Shown: positions 23,481 to 31,584 of the stretch, in pieces
Layout of the letters: each line of letters starts with the position of its first letter
How positions within the stretch are numbered: the stretch's first letter is position 1
From: Solimonas sp. SE-A11
Lineage (GTDB): Bacteria; Pseudomonadota; Gammaproteobacteria; Nevskiales; Nevskiaceae
NCBI RefSeq assembly: GCF_030345715.1
Contig: NZ_JAUASX010000008.1
Span: forward strand, 1-64,000
DNA: 64,000 nucleotides
Direction of reading: 5' to 3'
Made by a program: the position numbers and the translations under genes
The notes under the pieces: model-generated
What the model saw: only the letters and a program-made list of their open reading frames with translations
What the model was told of the DNA's origin: nothing
Databases searched by the model: none

Positions 23481-24565
23481 TGCTGTATCACCTTGCCCAA
23501 TACCTGCAGCCGCACATCAGCGGTTTCAACCTGTTCAACTACCTGACGATCCGCGCGGTGCTCGGCATCCTCACGGCGCTGGTGTTCTCCTTCGCCTTCG
23601 GGCCCTGGATGATCGAGCGGTTGTACCGCTTCAAGTTCGGCCAGCCGGTCCGCAGCGATGGCCCGCAGACCCACCTGAAGAAGACCGGCACCCCGACCAT
23701 GGGGGGCGTGCTGATCCTGCTGGCGATCAGCGTCTCGACACTGCTCTGGGCCAACCTGACCAACCGTTTCGTCTGGTGCGCCCTGCTGGTGACGCTGGCC
23801 TTCGGCGCCGTGGGTTTCGCTGACGATTACATCAAGATCAGGAACAAGGACCCCAAGGGCCTGCCGGCGCGCAAGAAGTATTTCTGGCTGTCGCTGGCCG
23901 GCTTCGGCGTCGCCACGCTGCTGTTTTTCACGCACAAGACGCCGGTGGAAACCACGCTGTTCTTCCCGTTCATGAAGGACGTGACGATCAGCCTGGGCAT
24001 CTTCTTCATCCCCTGGGCCTACCTGGTGATCGTGGGCAGCAGCAATGCCGTCAACCTCACCGACGGCCTCGATGGCCTGGCGATCCTGCCGACCGTGCTG
24101 GTGGCCTCGGCGCTGGCGGTGTTTGCCTACGCCAGCGGTAACGTCAAGTTCGCCGAGTACCTGGGCATTCCCTACATCGCCGGAGTCGGCGAGGTGGCGA
24201 TCTTCTGCACGGCCATCGCCGGTGCCGGCCTGGGCTTCCTGTGGTTCAACGCCTACCCGGCGCAGGTATTCATGGGTGACGTCGGTGCGCTGGCGCTGGG
24301 CGCCGCGCTGGGCGTGGTGGCGGTGATGGTGCGCCAGGAGCTGGTGCTGGCGATCATGGGCGGCGTGTTCGTCGCCGAGACCGTGTCGGTGGCGCTGCAG
24401 GTGCTGTACTTCAAGTATAGCGGCGGCAAGCGCATCTTCCGTATGGCCCCGCTGCATCACCACTACGAGCTGAAGGGATGGCCCGAGCCCAAGATCATCG
24501 TGCGCTTCTGGATCATCACGCTGATCCTGGTGCTGATCGGCCTCTCAACGCTGAAGATCCGATAG
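23480..24565 (+). CDS. mraY: phospho-MurNAc-pentapeptide translocase
   Basis: MraY transfers phospho-MurNAc-pentapeptide to undecaprenyl phosphate to form lipid I. The 361-residue protein is polytopic with about ten membrane helices. Key motifs are [10 protein letters not shown] near residues 69-78, FADDYIKI holding the aspartate pair, [14 protein letters not shown], and the C-terminal [11 protein letters not shown]. The start overlaps the murF stop (TGATG). All motifs are intact. Confidence 0.97.
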
Positions 24566-24569
24566 GAAC

Positions 24570-25934
24570 ATGAGCCGCTACGCCGGAAAGCACATGCTGG
24601 TAGTCGGCCTCGGAGCCAGCGGCGCCTCGGCGCTGCGCTACCTCGTGCGCGAAGGCGCCCGCGTGACGGCCACCGACAGCCGCGCCGCACCGGCGGGGCT
24701 GGCCGAGCTGCAGCAGCAGTTTCCGGATATCGCCTTCCACTGCGGCGCCTTCGCCGCGCCGGCGCCCCTGTCGCAGTATGCCGAGGCGGTGCTGTCGCCG
24801 GGCATCGCGCTGGACGAGCCCTTCGTGCGCGAACTGGCCGCGGCCGGCGTGTCGCTGGCGGGCGATGTCGAGCTGTTCGCCCGTGCCGCCAAGGCCCCGG
24901 TGATCGGCATCACCGGCTCCAACGGCAAGAGCACCGTGACCACCCTGGTCGGCGAGATGGCGCTGGCCGCCGGCCTGCGTACCGGCATCGGCGGCAATCT
25001 CGGCACCCCGGCACTGGACCTGCTGCGCGACGACGCGCAGCTCTACGTGCTGGAGCTATCCAGCTTCCAGCTGGAGACCACGCACAGCCTGCGCTGCGTC
25101 GCCGCCACGATCCTGAATCTGTCGCAGGACCACCTCGATCGCCACGGCACGATGGAGCACTACGGCGCGATCAAGGCCCGCATCTTCAGGGGCTGCGCGA
25201 CGGCGGTGGTAAATCGGGATGACGCGATGGTCATGGCGCTCGCCCGGGAATCGGGAATCGGGAATCGGGAATCGTCACAGCAGCTCTGGAGTTTCGGCCT
25301 GGGGGCCCCGCAGCAGCAGGGCGAGTACGGCTTGGTGCGCAAGGACGGATCGAATCAGCTGACGGACTACGATTCCCGATTCTCGATTCCCGATTCCCAA
25401 TTGAAGATCCACGGCTTGCACAACGCTGCCAATGCCCTGGCGGCGCTGGCGCTGGCGGATGCCGCCGGCATTCCGCGCGAGGCCTCGCTGCGGGCACTGC
25501 GTGCCTTCGGTGGCTTGGCTCACCGCTGCCAGTTCGTCGCCGAGATCGACGGTGTGCAGTACTTCAACGATTCGAAGGGTACCAACGTCGGTTCCACGCT
25601 GGCGGCACTCAATGGCCTGCCCGAGGGCATCGTCTGGCTGGCGGGCGGGCAGGGCAAGGGACAGAGCTTCACCGAACTGCGCGAAGCCCTGGCAGCCAAG
25701 GGTCGTGCCGCGATCCTGTTCGGCGAGGACGCCGGCCGCATCGAGGCCGACGTCTACGGCGCGCTGCCGATCTACCGCGAGCCGGACATGCTGGCGGCGC
25801 TGGCGCGTGCTCGCGGCCTGGCACAGCGCGGCGACCGCGTGCTGCTGTCGCCCGCCTGTGCCAGCTTCGATCAGTTCAAGAGCTATGTCGACCGCGGCAA
25901 CCGGTTCCGCGCCGCAGTGGAGGCGATGCGATGA
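24570..25934 (+). CDS. murD: UDP-MurNAc-L-alanine:D-glutamate ligase
   Basis: MurD adds D-glutamate to UDP-MurNAc-L-alanine. The 454-residue product has VVGLGASGASALRYL at the N-terminus, the P-loop GITGSNGKSTVT near residue 112, LELSSFQLETT, LNLSQDHLDRHG, and the C-terminal YFNDSKGTNVGSTLAAL and LLSPACASFDQF motifs. Two loops are altered by heptamer arrays: one gives [11 protein letters not shown] (about residue 230) and one gives YDSRFSIPDSQ (about residue 272). The native sequence between them still aligns with other MurD proteins, and the reading frame is intact, so the enzyme is probably functional. Its 5' ribosome-binding site overlaps the mraY stop. Confidence 0.95.
   Translation: MSRYAGKHMLVVGLGASGASALRYLVREGARVTATDSRAAPAGLAELQQQFPDIAFHCGAFAAPAPLSQYAEAVLSPGIALDEPFVRELAAAGVSLAGDVELFARAAKAPVIGITGSNGKSTVTTLVGEMALAAGLRTGIGGNLGTPALDLLRDDAQLYVLELSSFQLETTHSLRCVAATILNLSQDHLDRHGTMEHYGAIKARIFRGCATAVVNRDDAMVMALARESGIGNRESSQQLWSFGLGAPQQQGEYGLVRKDGSNQLTDYDSRFSIPDSQLKIHGLHNAANALAALALADAAGIPREASLRALRAFGGLAHRCQFVAEIDGVQYFNDSKGTNVGSTLAALNGLPEGIVWLAGGQGKGQSFTELREALAAKGRAAILFGEDAGRIEADVYGALPIYREPDMLAALARARGLAQRGDRVLLSPACASFDQFKSYVDRGNRFRAAVEAMR
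25246..25273 (+). repeat. GGGAATC x4 array inside murD (forward)
   Basis: Four perfect tandem copies of GGGAATC fill exactly 28 bases within the murD coding region. They encode part of a loop reading RESGIGNRE. Upstream and downstream codons return to conserved MurD sequence. Confidence 0.97.
25371..25398 (-). repeat. GGGAATC x4 array inside murD (inverted)
   Basis: Four tandem copies of GATTCCC, the reverse complement of the forward unit, with one substitution in the second copy (GATTCTC). Like its partner it is 28 bases long. It lies 97 bases downstream of the forward array and encodes DSRFSIPDS. Confidence 0.97.
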
Positions 25935-27199
25935 ACTTTTCGCTGAAACTGACGATGCCGCGGGCCCGCTACGGCATGGACATATGGCTGAGCCTGGCCG
26001 CCGCGATCCTGCTGACCTGGGGCGTGGTGATGGTGGCTTCCGCCTCGGTGGCGCAAGCCGAGAAGCTGACCGGCGAGCCGTTCTACTTCTTCTACCGCCA
26101 GTTGCTGTTCATCGCGATGGGCTTTGCCGCCGGCTTCATCATGTACTGCGTGCCCACGCGGCAGTGGGAGCGCAGCGGCTTCCTGCTGGTCGGCTTCGCG
26201 ATCTTCCTGCTGATCGTGGTGCTGATCCCCGGCATCGGCGTTAAGGTCAACAGCGCGCGCCGCTGGATCGACCTGGAACTGTTCCGCCTGCAAGCCTCGG
26301 AGCCGGCGCGCCTGGCGCTGATCCTGTTCCTGGCCGGCTACATCACGCGCCGCCAGGCCGAGCTGCAGCATGGCTTCCGCGGCCTGGCCAAGCCCATCGC
26401 CCTGCTGATGCTGCCCTGCCTGCTGCTGCTGATGGAGCCGGACTTCGGCGCCACCGTGATCCTGATGGCGGTGGCCTTCCTGATGCTGTTCCTGGGCGGC
26501 GCCCGCGTCGTCTACTTCGGCATTGCCGGCCTGCTGGCCAGTGGCGCGGTGGCACTGCTGGCGGTGGCCGAGCCCTATCGCCTGCGCCGCCTGCTGAACT
26601 TCACCAACCCCTGGGCGGACGTGGAGAACGGCGGCTGGCAGCTGGCGCAGTCGCTGATCGCGGTAGGCCGCGGCGAGTGGGCTGGTGTTGGCCTGGGCAA
26701 CAGCGTGCAGAAGCTGCTGTACCTGCCGGAAATGCACACCGACTTCATCTTCGCGATCCTGGCCGAGGAGTTTGGCCTGATGGGCGTGCTGGCGCTGGTG
26801 CTGCTGTTCGGCGTCATGGTCTGGCGCGGCTTCGTCATCGGCCGCGAGGCCGAGGCCGGCGGCCGCCTGTTCCCGGGCTTCTTGTGCTATGGCCTTTCGA
26901 GCTGGCTGGGCCTGCAGGCGCTGATCAACATGGCCGTGAACATGGGCATCCTGCCGACCAAGGGCCTGACGCTGCCGCTGCTCAGCTATGGAGGCTCGTC
27001 GCTGATCATCGTTTGCGCGATGCTGGGCCTGATCCTGCGTGTGGATTACGAGAACCGCGCCGCGCTGGCCGGCGATGCCGAGCCGGCGCCGGTGCCCAAG
27101 GAGCCGAAGGCCTCGCAGCGCGAATCGCGCGAGACCGCTGTGCCGCGCCCGCGCCGCAAGAGCCCGGAGATGCCATGGCTGGCGGAGAACGGCTCATGA
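25931..27199 (+). CDS. ftsW: septal peptidoglycan polymerase FtsW
   Basis: FtsW is the SEDS-family glycosyltransferase that polymerises septal glycan with FtsI. The 422-residue protein has about ten membrane helices. The conserved loop NSARRWIDLELFRLQASEPARL, the catalytic-aspartate segment EPDFGATVIL, and GLGNSVQKLLYLPEMHTDFIFAILAEE are all present, as is the C-terminal GLTLPLLSYGGSS signature. A basic, proline-rich cytoplasmic tail follows residue 375. It overlaps murD and murG by 4 bases. Confidence 0.95.
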   Translation: MNFSLKLTMPRARYGMDIWLSLAAAILLTWGVVMVASASVAQAEKLTGEPFYFFYRQLLFIAMGFAAGFIMYCVPTRQWERSGFLLVGFAIFLLIVVLIPGIGVKVNSARRWIDLELFRLQASEPARLALILFLAGYITRRQAELQHGFRGLAKPIALLMLPCLLLLMEPDFGATVILMAVAFLMLFLGGARVVYFGIAGLLASGAVALLAVAEPYRLRRLLNFTNPWADVENGGWQLAQSLIAVGRGEWAGVGLGNSVQKLLYLPEMHTDFIFAILAEEFGLMGVLALVLLFGVMVWRGFVIGREAEAGGRLFPGFLCYGLSSWLGLQALINMAVNMGILPTKGLTLPLLSYGGSSLIIVCAMLGLILRVDYENRAALAGDAEPAPVPKEPKASQRESRETAVPRPRRKSPEMPWLAENGS

Positions 27200-28272
27200 G
27201 CAAGGGCATCAAGGTCATGATCATGGCGGGTGGTACTGGAGGCCACGTCTACCCCGCGCTCGCCATCGCTGACGCACTGCGCCAGCAGGGTCACGAGGTG
27301 GTGTGGATGGGCGCCCCCGACAGCTTCGAGTCGCGCGCGGTGCCCAGGCATGGCATTGCCATGGAGTTCATCCGCGTCAGCGGCCTGCGCGGCAAGGGCA
27401 TCGGCAAGCTGCTCTCGGCGCCACTGGTACTGCTGCGTGCGCTGCGCGATGCGCTGGCGGCACTGCGCCGCCAGCAGCCGCAGCTGGTGCTGGGCATGGG
27501 CGGATTCGCGGCGGGCCCCGGCGGTGTTGCAGCCTGGCTGACGCGCCGGCCCCTGCTGATCCACGAGCAGAACGCCGCCGCCGGCATGACCAATCGCCTG
27601 CTGGCGCGCATCGCCACGCGCGTGCTCGAAGCCTTCCCGAATACCTTCCGGCATGCGCTGACCGTGGGCAACCCGGTGCGCGCCGGCTTCGCGGAACTTC
27701 CGGCACCGGCACAGCGCCTCGCTCGCGACGGCGTCATGCGCGTGCTCGTGATCGGTGGTAGCCAGGGTGCGCTGTCGCTCAACACGCTGGTGCCCAAGGC
27801 GCTGTCCCTGATGCCGGAGGCGGCGCGCCCACAGGTTCGCCATCAGGCTGGCCGCACGCTGGAGCGCGCGCAGAAGAGCTATGCCGATGCCGGGGTCTCC
27901 GCATCGGTCGATGCCTTCATCGACGACATGCCCGCGGCCTATGCCTGGGCCGACCTGGTGATCTGCCGTTCCGGCGCCTCCACGGTTGCCGAGCTGGCCG
28001 CCGCCGGCTGCGCCGCGCTGCTGGTGCCGTTCCCGGCGGCGGTGGACGATCACCAGACCCGCAACGGCGAGTACCTGGTCGCGGCCGGCGCCGCGCAACT
28101 GGTGCAGGAGCGTGACCTGAACCCGGAACTGCTGGCGGCCCTGCTCGGCACGATGCTGGCCGACCGCGCCGCGCTGGCGCGCATGGGCGAGGCCGCGCGC
28201 CGCGCCGCCTGGACCGACGCTACCGCGCGCATCGTCGCCGAATGTCTCGCACAAGGGAGTGCCAGGGCATGA
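27196..28272 (+). CDS. murG: UDP-GlcNAc:undecaprenyl-PP-MurNAc-pentapeptide GlcNAc transferase
   Basis: MurG is a peripheral membrane GT-B glycosyltransferase that turns lipid I into lipid II. The 358-residue protein has the N-terminal [12 protein letters not shown] loop, the [10 protein letters not shown] segment, [29 protein letters not shown] and the C-terminal donor-binding [14 protein letters not shown]. The ATG at 27196 overlaps the ftsW stop; an in-frame extension reaching into ftsW was rejected. Confidence 0.96.
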
Positions 28273-29693
28273 ACAAGACCACCAGCACGATGATGGACAC
28301 CCCGATGCGCCGCGTGCGCCGCATCCACATGCTGGGCATCGGCGGCTCCGGCATGGCCGGCATCGCCGAGGTGCTGCTCAACCTAGGCTACGAGGTCAGC
28401 GGTACCGACCTGAAGGAAAGTGCCTCGACCCAGCGCCTGGCGGAGGCCGGTGCGAAGATATTCTTCGGCCACCAGCGCGAGAATGCGGTCGGTGCAGATG
28501 CCATCGTCGTCTCCACGGCGGTCAAGGCCGACAATCCGGAGTTGGAGTACGCGCACGAGCAGCACATCCCGGTGGTGCGCCGCGCGGAGATGCTGGCCGA
28601 GCTGATGCGCTTCCGCTATGGCGTCGCCATCGCCGGCACGCATGGCAAGACCACCACCACCAGCCTGGTCTCCAGCGTGCTGGCCGAGGGTGGGTTGGAC
28701 CCGACCTACGTCATCGGCGGCAAGCTCAAGTCCGCCGGCGCCAATGCGCGGCTGGGCGAGGGCAAGTACCTGGTGGCCGAGGCCGACGAGAGCGACGCGT
28801 CGTTCCTGCACCTGTCGCCGATGATCTCGGCCGTCACCAACATCGACGCCGATCACCTGGAAACCTATGGCGGCGACTTCCGTCGCCTGCGCGCCACCTT
28901 CGTCGAGTTCCTGCATCGCCTGCCGTTCTACGGCCTGGCGGTGATGTGCATCGACGACCCGGTGATTCGCGAGACCATCAACGACATCGGCCGGCCGCTG
29001 CTGACCTATGGCTTTTCCGACGATGCCGACGTGCGCGCCAGCGACGTGCGTCCCGAAGGTGCCGGTGCGCACTTCACGGTGCATTTCCGCGATGGCAGCC
29101 GTGAGGAATTCCACCTCAACCTGCCCGGCCGCCACAACGTGCAGAATGCCCTGGTGGCCGTGGCCATCGGCCGCGAGCTGGGCGTCAGCATGGCGGCGAT
29201 CCGCAAGGCGCTCAGCGGCTTCCAGGGCGTGGGCCGTCGCTGCGAGCCGCATGGCGAGCTGCAGTTTCCGCAGGGCAAGGCCCTGCTGGTGGACGACTAC
29301 GGTCATCACCCGCGCGAGATTGCCGCCACGTTCCAGGCGATGCGCGCCGCGCATCCCGAACGGCGCATGGTGGTGGCTTTCCAGCCGCACCGCTTCACGC
29401 GCACGCGCGACCTGTTCGACGACTTCTGCGACATCCTCAGCAGTGCCGACGCGCTGCTGCTGACCGACATCTACGCTGCCGGCGAAGCGCCGATCGAAGG
29501 CGCCGACGGCCGCGCCCTGGCCCGCGGCATCCGTGCCCGCGGCAAGGTCGAGCCGGTGCTGATCCGCGGCGTGCAGGACCTGCCGGACGCGCTGGAGTCG
29601 ATCGTGCGCGAGGGCGACCTGATCCTGACCCTGGGGGCCGGCGACATCGGCTCGGCACCGGCGCTGCTGGCGCGATACCGGAGCGCGGCATGA
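28269..29693 (+). CDS. murC: UDP-N-acetylmuramate:L-alanine ligase
   Basis: MurC attaches L-alanine to UDP-MurNAc, starting the stem peptide. The 474-residue product has the Rossmann-like [16 protein letters not shown] near residue 18, the P-loop [41 protein letters not shown] and the C-terminal [10 protein letters not shown] and [11 protein letters not shown] motifs. The ATG at 28269 overlaps the murG stop and follows a good AGGGAG ribosome-binding site. It overlaps murB by 4 bases. Confidence 0.96.
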
Positions 29694-30649
29694 GCCATGC
29701 CGGGAATCGGGAATCGGGAATCGGGAATCGGGAGGGCCTGCGTGGCCGTCTCCTGGTTCACGAGCCCCTGTCCCGGCACACATCTTGGCGTGTGGGTGGC
29801 CCTGCGGATCGCTACTACGAGCCGGCAGATCGGGAGGATCTCGTCGCATTCGTTCGCGGCTTGCCGCCGGACGAGCCCATCCTCTGGATCGGCCTCGGCA
29901 GCAACCTGCTGGTGCGCGACGGCGGAGTCCGCGGCACGGTTCTCTGCCTGCATGGCGCGCTGGACGAGATGGGCATGGCGGGCGCGGGCGCGCGCGATTC
30001 CCGATTCCCGATTCCCGATTCCCGGCTTCTGCATGCCGAGGCCGGCGTGCACTGCGCGCGCATGGCCAAGTACGCCACTGGCGAAGGCCTGGCCGGCGCC
30101 GGATTCTTTGCCGGCATCCCCGGCACGGTGGGCGGCGCCCTGGCGATGAATGCGGGCGCGCACGGTGGCGAGACTTGGAACCACGTCAGCGAGGTCGAGG
30201 TCCTATTCCGCGATGGCCGCAGTGCCTGGCTGCCGCGCAGCGAGTTCCGCTACGGCTACCGCCACGTCGAGTGGCCGCAGGGCATGGTGGGCTTCCTCGC
30301 GGCGCGCCTCAGTTTCACGCCGGATACCACCGGCACTGCGGCGCAGGACATGAAGCAGTGGCTGGCCAAGCGCAAGGCGACGCAGCCGGTGGGCAAGCCC
30401 AGCGCCGGCAGCACCTTCCGCAACCCGCCGGGCGACCATGCGGCGCGGCTGATCGAGAGCTGTGGTCTCAAGGGGTGCCGCATCGGCGGCGCGCAGGTCT
30501 CGGAGCTGCACGCCAATTTCATCATCACCGACGAGGGCGCGCGTGCGGCCGACGTCGAGGCACTGATCGCGCAGGTGCGCGGCATCGTTCATGAGAAGAC
30601 GGGAGTCGAGCTGATTCCCGAAGTAAAGGTTGTTGGAGAAGCAGCATGA
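29690..30649 (+). CDS. murB: UDP-N-acetylenolpyruvoylglucosamine reductase
   Basis: MurB reduces the enolpyruvyl group of UDP-GlcNAc-enolpyruvate with NADPH and FAD. The 319-residue protein has the FAD-binding [30 protein letters not shown] and [20 protein letters not shown] motifs, the catalytic serine in [20 protein letters not shown], and the C-terminal glutamate in [13 protein letters not shown]. It looks like the shorter class without the extra loop of the E. coli enzyme. Heptamer arrays modify two places: right after the start ([11 protein letters not shown]) and a loop near residue 103 ([12 protein letters not shown]). The frame is intact. It is coupled to murC and ddl by 4-base overlaps. 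Confidence 0.94.
29702..29729 (+). repeat. GGGAATC x4 array at the 5' end of murB (forward)
   Basis: Four perfect copies of GGGAATC plus a further GGGA start 12 bases after the murB start codon. They encode [11 protein letters not shown] ahead of the conserved FAD domain, so they form an N-terminal extension. Confidence 0.97.
29996..30023 (-). repeat. GGGAATC x4 array inside murB (inverted)
   Basis: Four perfect copies of GATTCCC fill 28 bases, 266 bases after the forward array. They encode DSRFPIPDS in a loop between two conserved MurB segments. Confidence 0.97.
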
Positions 30650-31584
30650 CCCGCGTCACCGATCCCAAGGCCTTTGGCCGCGTCGCAGTCCTCCTTGGCG
30701 GCTGGTCCGCCGAGCGCGAGGTCTCGCTGTGGAGCGGCAAGAACGTGGTGGAGGCCATGCAGCGCCGCGGCATCGACGTGACCGCCGTGGATGTGGTCAA
30801 CCCCGGCATCCTGCTGGGCCTGGGAGACCAGGGTTATGATCGGGTCTTCAATATCATGCACGGCACCGGCGGCGAAGACGGCACGGTGCAGGCGGTGCTG
30901 GACCTGCTCGGCATCCCCTACCCGGGCAGCGGCGTTCTGGCGTCCGCGCTGGCCATGGACAAGCTACGCACCAAGCGCATCTGGAAGGCAGAGGGCCTGC
31001 CGACGCCGGACTTCGCGTTGCTGCAGGACGTCGGCGATGCCCGCCAGGCGGCCGAACGCTTCGGCTATCCCTTCATCATCAAGCCGGCGGCGGACGGTTC
31101 CAGCGTCGGCGTCAGCAAGGTCAAGTCGGCCGACCAGATCGGCAAGGCCTTCGACGACGCGCGTGGCCCGGGCCGCGTGGTGATCGCCGAGCAGTTCATC
31201 GCCGGCGGCGAGTACACCTGCTTCGTGCTGGGTGGCGAGGCCCTGCCGGTGATCCGCATCGAGCCCGATGGCGAGTTCTACGACTATCACGCCAAGTACA
31301 TCTCGGACAACACCAAGTATCACTGTCCGGCCGGCCTGGACGCGGAGCACGAGCGGCGCTGCCAGGAAATCTGCCGGCGCGCCTTCGAACTGGTCGACGG
31401 CCGCGACTGGGGCCGCGTGGACTTCATGATGGATGCCCAGGGCAATCCCTGGCTGCTGGAGATCAACATGCTGCCTGGCATGACCTCCCACAGCCTGGCG
31501 CCGATGGCGGCGCGAGCACGGGGCATCGACTTCGACGAGCTGTGCTGGCGTCTGCTGGAAACCACCCTGGGGCGCAAGCCATGA
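30646..31584 (+). CDS. ddl: D-alanine:D-alanine ligase
   Basis: Ddl joins two D-alanines for the MurF reaction. The 312-residue ATP-grasp protein is DdlB-like: GGWSAEREVSLWSGKNV at the start, HGTGGEDGTVQAVLDLLGIPYPGSGVL with the active-site glutamate region, IIKPAADGSSVGVSKV, and the metal-binding VDFMMD...PWLLEINMLPGMT segment. The position between murB and ftsQ is the standard one. It overlaps murB by 4 bases and shares an ATGA junction with ftsQ. Confidence 0.96.
   Translation: MTRVTDPKAFGRVAVLLGGWSAEREVSLWSGKNVVEAMQRRGIDVTAVDVVNPGILLGLGDQGYDRVFNIMHGTGGEDGTVQAVLDLLGIPYPGSGVLASALAMDKLRTKRIWKAEGLPTPDFALLQDVGDARQAAERFGYPFIIKPAADGSSVGVSKVKSADQIGKAFDDARGPGRVVIAEQFIAGGEYTCFVLGGEALPVIRIEPDGEFYDYHAKYISDNTKYHCPAGLDAEHERRCQEICRRAFELVDGRDWGRVDFMMDAQGNPWLLEINMLPGMTSHSLAPMAARARGIDFDELCWRLLETTLGRKP

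Follow-up and report, generated by a model that had tools for sequence, protein, structure and literature searches.

Tandem repeats of the heptamer GGGAATC have been described in Xanthomonas (Rehm et al. 2015, PMC4692102). According to the consulted sections of that study, they occur as convergent inverted pairs (70 in Xcc and 75 in Xac), prefer four units, and are mostly intergenic, lying near the ends of ORFs. The authors of this dedicated study, in the same sections, found no function for them.

We analysed a stretch of 64,000 nucleotides of Solimonas sp. SE-A11 (G000), hereafter the window, for which two arrays of this heptamer had been predicted within murD. Both are present exactly where they had been placed (Table 1) and were recovered as period-7 arrays by TRF. 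With up to two mismatches allowed, the window contains 12 matches to the two-unit word GGGAATCGGGAATC, where 0.34 would be expected, and in 100 shuffles of the window the maximum was three, none reaching 12. These 12 matches all belong to two pairs of arrays, one in murD and the other in murB. An Rfam search over positions 24000-31000 gave nothing above the gathering score, and the three weak sub-threshold matches do not fall on the arms.

Table 1. Features of the murD and murB loci (positions in the window)
Feature	Position	Strand	Description
murD	24570..25934	+	454 aa, intact ORF; TIGR01087 match, 412 bits
Diverged stretch left of murD arm 1	25187..25245	+	13/59 sites changed in G000 only
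murD arm 1	25246..25273	+	four GGGAATC units, then GT; encodes residues 226-235
murD bracketed segment	25274..25370	+	MurD sequence between arms; 25/77 compared sites changed in G000 only
murD arm 2	25371..25398	-	four units on minus strand, of which one is the variant GAGAATC; encodes DSRFSIPDS, starting at residue 268
murB	29690..30649	+	319 aa, intact
murB arm 1	29702..29729	+	four perfect GGGAATC units shortly after start codon
murB bracketed segment	29730..29995	+	substitution excess in the two species of the genus that bear arms
murB arm 2	29996..30023	-	four perfect units, minus strand

The murD reading frame is unbroken, as the original prediction had held, and 39 columns are invariant across all 35 aligned MurD proteins, that of SE-A11 included. 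In an AlphaFold2 model of the protein (mean pLDDT 93.7), both arms are placed at loop or turn positions: arm 1 starts at a helix end and continues as coil (residues 231-240 having a pLDDT of 78), while arm 2 takes in coil, a short strand and one turn of helix. The closest named relatives of this MurD are from Solimonas, namely an unclassified MAG (G001) and S. fluminis (G002), at 87% by tblastn and 89% in a second comparison. Alignment of murD from close relatives, proposed as a check, showed that the other three genomes from this genus (G001, G002 and G059) have neither array. The comparison supports two separate loop insertions with MurD sequence between them, rather than one inserted cassette.

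The same repeat is dispersed through the genome. Exact two-unit matches number 40 in SE-A11, 79 in its sister G001 and two in S. fluminis; any such match was found in 18 of 58 genomes of the family, and seven of the 58 contained at least 14. SE-A11 has 17 distinct repeat sites and G001 has 33; the former count takes in both window sites and a single site that only the unit finder detected. A strict scan for compact pairs with exact units matched in one of 369 sampled genomes of the class, namely SE-A11. Arms were surveyed in the stretches round all listed sites of SE-A11 and G001, chosen for the exact two-unit word, and the counts include orthologous sites common to both species (12 locus pairs) and one contig-overlap duplicate (L112 and L116). 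The survey gave 101 arms, 79 with four units, 12 with two, nine with three and one with five; they form 46 convergent pairs, and nine arms are unpaired. Adjacent arms within 500 bp of each other (n = 50) are ordered +- in 46 cases, ++ in two, -- in two and -+ in none, so that the inverted pairing for which a genome-wide search had been suggested is indeed found. Beyond the heptamers, AAAGAC outside the arms and GTAGAAGC or GTCAAAGA inside them are typical, as judged by eye.

In 38 pairs the spacer is 20-57 bp long; the other eight have spacers of 97-371 bp. With genes called by a simple codon score, most pairs are compact and lie at or between gene ends, and six of the 46 are wholly within the body of a family-supported gene. 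Six of the eight long-spacer pairs are intragenic, in murD, murB (both species), aceF, cheA and nasA. As to a link with specific gene classes, the arrays are not peculiar to murD. Three further pairs (L111, L124 and L155) fall within ORFs that are either predicted ones at gene ends or unverified; the one at L124:1960-2042 is in frame in the C-terminal tail of ribonuclease HII, past the Pfam match. Unpaired arms can also persist, as a lone four-unit arm is found near the start of a TPR/DUF1329 gene in both species (L117:1987-2014 and L130:2007-2034). Contigs end within ~200 bases of arrays at G000:C37:101-128, G000:C41:190836-190900, G001:C7:119 and G001:C30:153; the start of C37 repeats a stretch of C7, and the assembly therefore seems to fork at the element. 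At L123, the one clean intergenic site, G059 has just 9 bp between the genes, which rules out ancestral host sequence as the origin of that intergenic spacer. Taken together, it is well supported that these repeats are of the kind described by Rehm et al., and the murD arrays are best explained as the paired arms of a single copy of such a dispersed palindrome.

In murD, murB, aceF, cheA and nasA (the last three named from the Pfam domain sets found), the arms are in frame, each in a loop or linker of its own with 97-266 bp from one to the other, and the sequence between them is homologous to that of arm-free relatives. In cheA there is a third, tandem arm, and the alignment between the arms is weak (41-51% amino acid identity). 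Arms are present at the same two places in murB, partly decayed, in a genome of another genus (G043), and the nasA arms are also found in G039 and, in shorter form, in G024. A second palindromic family (CTCTCCC...GGGAGAG), which encodes PLPQAGEG, is found in these same loops of nasA (L205, L206) and cheA (L180, L182) in SE-A11 and G059. Because arms recur in these loops across genera, and the second repeat shares those of cheA and nasA, the arm loops look like tolerant landing places. The second repeat is also seen in the same intergenic slot (the second L122 element) of S. fluminis and G059 (L288, L292). Single arm-like peptides (GNGESAIGNRNGE; ESRFPIP) occur at the second-arm loop of murD in other genera (L224 of G024, and L034/L244), the murD of G024 having an unpaired arm.

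The bracketed segment is unusually diverged in the arm-bearing species. The claim that the 97 bases between the murD arrays still align with MurD holds as far as homology goes, but their amino acid identity to the other three species in the genus is only 44-48% (25 aligned codons), compared with 81-99% in the flanks. At the DNA level the bracket is 53-61% identical to the genus and the flanks 82-94%, the change being abrupt. The two 100-bp windows with the lowest identity between SE-A11 and G001 in a 26-kb four-species alignment are those at 25186-25385, a region in which identity among the other three species is 72-92%, and the number of SE-A11-specific sites in the murD bracket is reached by none of 2592 same-size windows elsewhere in that alignment. 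A five-gene comparison put lineage-specific change in murD at 33.3% in the bracket and 3.5% outside; three of the 25 unique bracket changes are in codons synonymous across all four species. The diverged tract extends a further 59 bp beyond arm 1 and is therefore not strictly arm-bounded on the left. The 21 residues left of this arm are 85.7% identical to an MurD from another genus (L236), against at most 66.7% to their own genus.

Excess change, about threefold on three branches, is also seen in murB, where two species of the genus bear arms. Shared derived changes amount to 6.9% of the bracket, and those unique to SE-A11 and G001 to 6.0% and 6.5%, compared with 1.9-2.1% over the remainder of the 26-kb alignment; the two unique values were reached by none of 2493 windows, and the arm-free S. 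fluminis and G059 have ordinary rates here. Lineage-specific change inside and outside the bracket was, in the five-gene comparison, 6.1 vs 1.1% for SE-A11 and 6.1 vs 2.9% for G001. Fourfold sites differ between these two species at 21 of 49 positions in the bracket and 17 of 119 downstream. When murB was compared more widely, fourfold divergence from non-bearers was greater in the bracket than downstream in 8/8 cases for SE-A11, 8/8 for G043 and 5/8 for G001, compared with 3/28 among pairs of non-bearers.

The remaining genes behave similarly, with lineage-specific change inside and outside the bracket of 15.0 vs 2.0% in cheA, 16.7 vs 2.5% in nasA and 9.5 vs 3.5% in aceF; none of the 14 unique bracket changes in nasA is in a codon synonymous across all four species. 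Over the five genes, the ratio of bracket to outside change is 2.1-9.5 on the six bearer branches and 0-3.4 on the 14 non-bearer branches, a difference (Mann-Whitney p 3e-4) that is only indicative, since the branches are not fully independent and it is the arms that set the brackets. Among non-bearers, aceF in G059 has the highest ratio. Non-bearers too change faster in the bracket of aceF (odds ratio 2.3, p 8e-6) and slightly faster in that of cheA (odds ratio 1.8, p 0.02), and linkers thus vary regardless of arms. At the 12 loci common to SE-A11 and G001, identity is 95.4% in the arms and 78.3% in the spacers; outside the arms it is 92.6% in the nearest 60 bp (intergenic bases included) and 93.9-95.5% further out, and divergence there is not clearly raised. 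The rate of divergence is not clock-like, as murD, with arms in one species, has changed more than murB, with arms common to two.

How might these observations be explained? A typical arm consists of four G-rich heptamers with a GT foot, paired arms face each other, and the murD arrays would be one such copy. We infer that this copy is near-neutral or selfish and persists because it was inserted where the harm is small, rather than being a regulator of murD. Less firmly, copies in coding sequence may survive when their arms land in separate tolerant loops. Pairing of the arms as a 30-bp stem, or the formation of G-quadruplexes, might then make replication or repair between them inaccurate, and such inaccurate copying or repair could in turn lead the bracketed segment to diverge faster than its flanks. 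This explanation as a whole, a near-neutral or selfish copy of a dispersed palindromic repeat lodged in tolerant loops, with divergence driven by its arms, is the one that we consider probable, if with some reserve.

The excess divergence itself could be due to local mutagenesis, to the import of divergent alleles, or to adaptation. Local mutagenesis fits because the murB excess is found on three branches and at synonymous sites, while adaptation to the new loops fits because the excess in murD and nasA is amino-acid-changing. Import fits because the murD tract is abrupt, overruns arm 1 by 59 bp and has foreign-looking residues there. Since there are few synonymous changes in the murD and nasA brackets, adaptation or import accounts for these as well as mutation does. 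On the import explanation, arm-bearing and already divergent alleles would have come from another lineage by homologous recombination, arms and segment together, and the arms at matching murB sites in G043, and in nasA of G039 and G024, are consistent with this. However, among the 85 genomes of the order that were searched, the nearest match to the murB bracket was the sister species, at 85%, and no donor was found. Import would also have to have happened about three times in murB, because the excess is on three branches, and unique bracket changes match the outgroup majority no more often than outside ones do, the numbers being small. We hold import to be a tentative explanation, with a real but lesser chance of being correct. 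It is more doubtful that the paired G-rich arms, by way of a stem or quadruplexes in DNA, constitute a local diversification device, with the segment mutating or recombining several times faster even in the essential genes murD and murB.

Movement of the repeat as a REPIN-type mobile element by a Y1 (RAYT) transposase is unlikely. As in the REPINs of PMC3116915, in the portion of it consulted, there are hairpin-capable inverted doublets, mostly at or between gene ends, with few singlets; but Y1_Tnp matches and repeat number are not correlated, G043 having 33 two-unit matches and no Y1_Tnp and G059 having 11 Y1_Tnp and no two-unit match.

The original prediction had further envisaged a 28-bp mRNA stem with one mismatch, which could slow ribosomes or recruit a nuclease. 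A long stem is possible according to mRNA folding, but the variant unit of arm 2 gives a G-U pair in the mRNA, so no mismatch interrupts the predicted murD stem, which is 30 pairs long (z -5.7, minimum free energy -89.8 kcal/mol, none of 200 shuffles as good). Such stable predicted stems (z -6.2 for murB) would suit a regulatory hairpin, and a regulatory quadruplex would accord with the DNA oligonucleotide (GGGAATC)3GGG, which forms a quadruplex in vitro in the part of PMC4692102 consulted. Against either, such arms are found at many unrelated places, mostly at or between gene ends and also in aceF, cheA and nasA, the murD arms are missing from all three congeners compared, and the arms do not covary. 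Partner arms resemble each other no better than shuffled arms do (163 mismatches vs 161.4 expected, p 0.60), and there is thus no sign of the stem being maintained or of selection for a perfect stem. The same shuffled-arm test (p 0.60) gave no sign of foldback template switching, with arm 2 copied from arm 1, as a recent event. Neither a murD-specific control function for the arms nor a role in slowing ribosomes or recruiting a nuclease is supported, and regulation through a hairpin or quadruplex in mRNA seems improbable, slightly more so than REPIN-type movement. Ordinary microsatellite slippage giving two independent arrays, which the perfect heptamer runs might suggest, is very improbable, because unit number is mostly fixed at four (79 of 101 arms), the convergent order is fixed, and sequence beyond the repeats recurs, with AAAGAC outside and GTAGAAGC or GTCAAAGA inside.

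The pairs that bracket coding sequence offer a natural comparison, with and without arms, at known genes. The excess divergence between arms has a testable consequence, in that the arms would act as local mutagens or travel with imported alleles, and either outcome would bear on how essential genes gain new loops.

A search of the open-access literature for intragenic pairs, or for faster change between arms, returned nothing beyond PMC4692102, PMC3116915 and PMC3733652. Like the REPINs of PMC3116915, as described in its consulted part, the repeats here are inverted doublets with a spacer and predicted hairpins; unlike them, their number does not track Y1 transposase genes. With the GTAG/CGTC REPs in ORFs and the Rickettsia palindromic elements (PMC3733652, consulted in part), they have in common that palindromes lie in coding regions, sometimes at two sites per gene; those elements, however, belong to other sequence families with stems of 5-13 bp, whereas here the halves of one palindrome are split by host sequence. 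The agreement with the Xanthomonas repeats, in the consulted sections of PMC4692102, extends to the heptamer, its tandem units, the preference for four, the convergent pairing and the mostly intergenic location, although the host is here one of the Nevskiaceae. A quadruplex was observed there in vitro for the same sequence, and the arrays here are candidates for forming one. Pairs with both arms in one gene body and separated by coding sequence of the host, and an excess of divergence from arm to arm, are found here and are not described in those sections. Thus, the kind of repeat is already known from Rehm et al., as far as those sections go, and what is new is the unusual divergence of the segment that its arms bracket.
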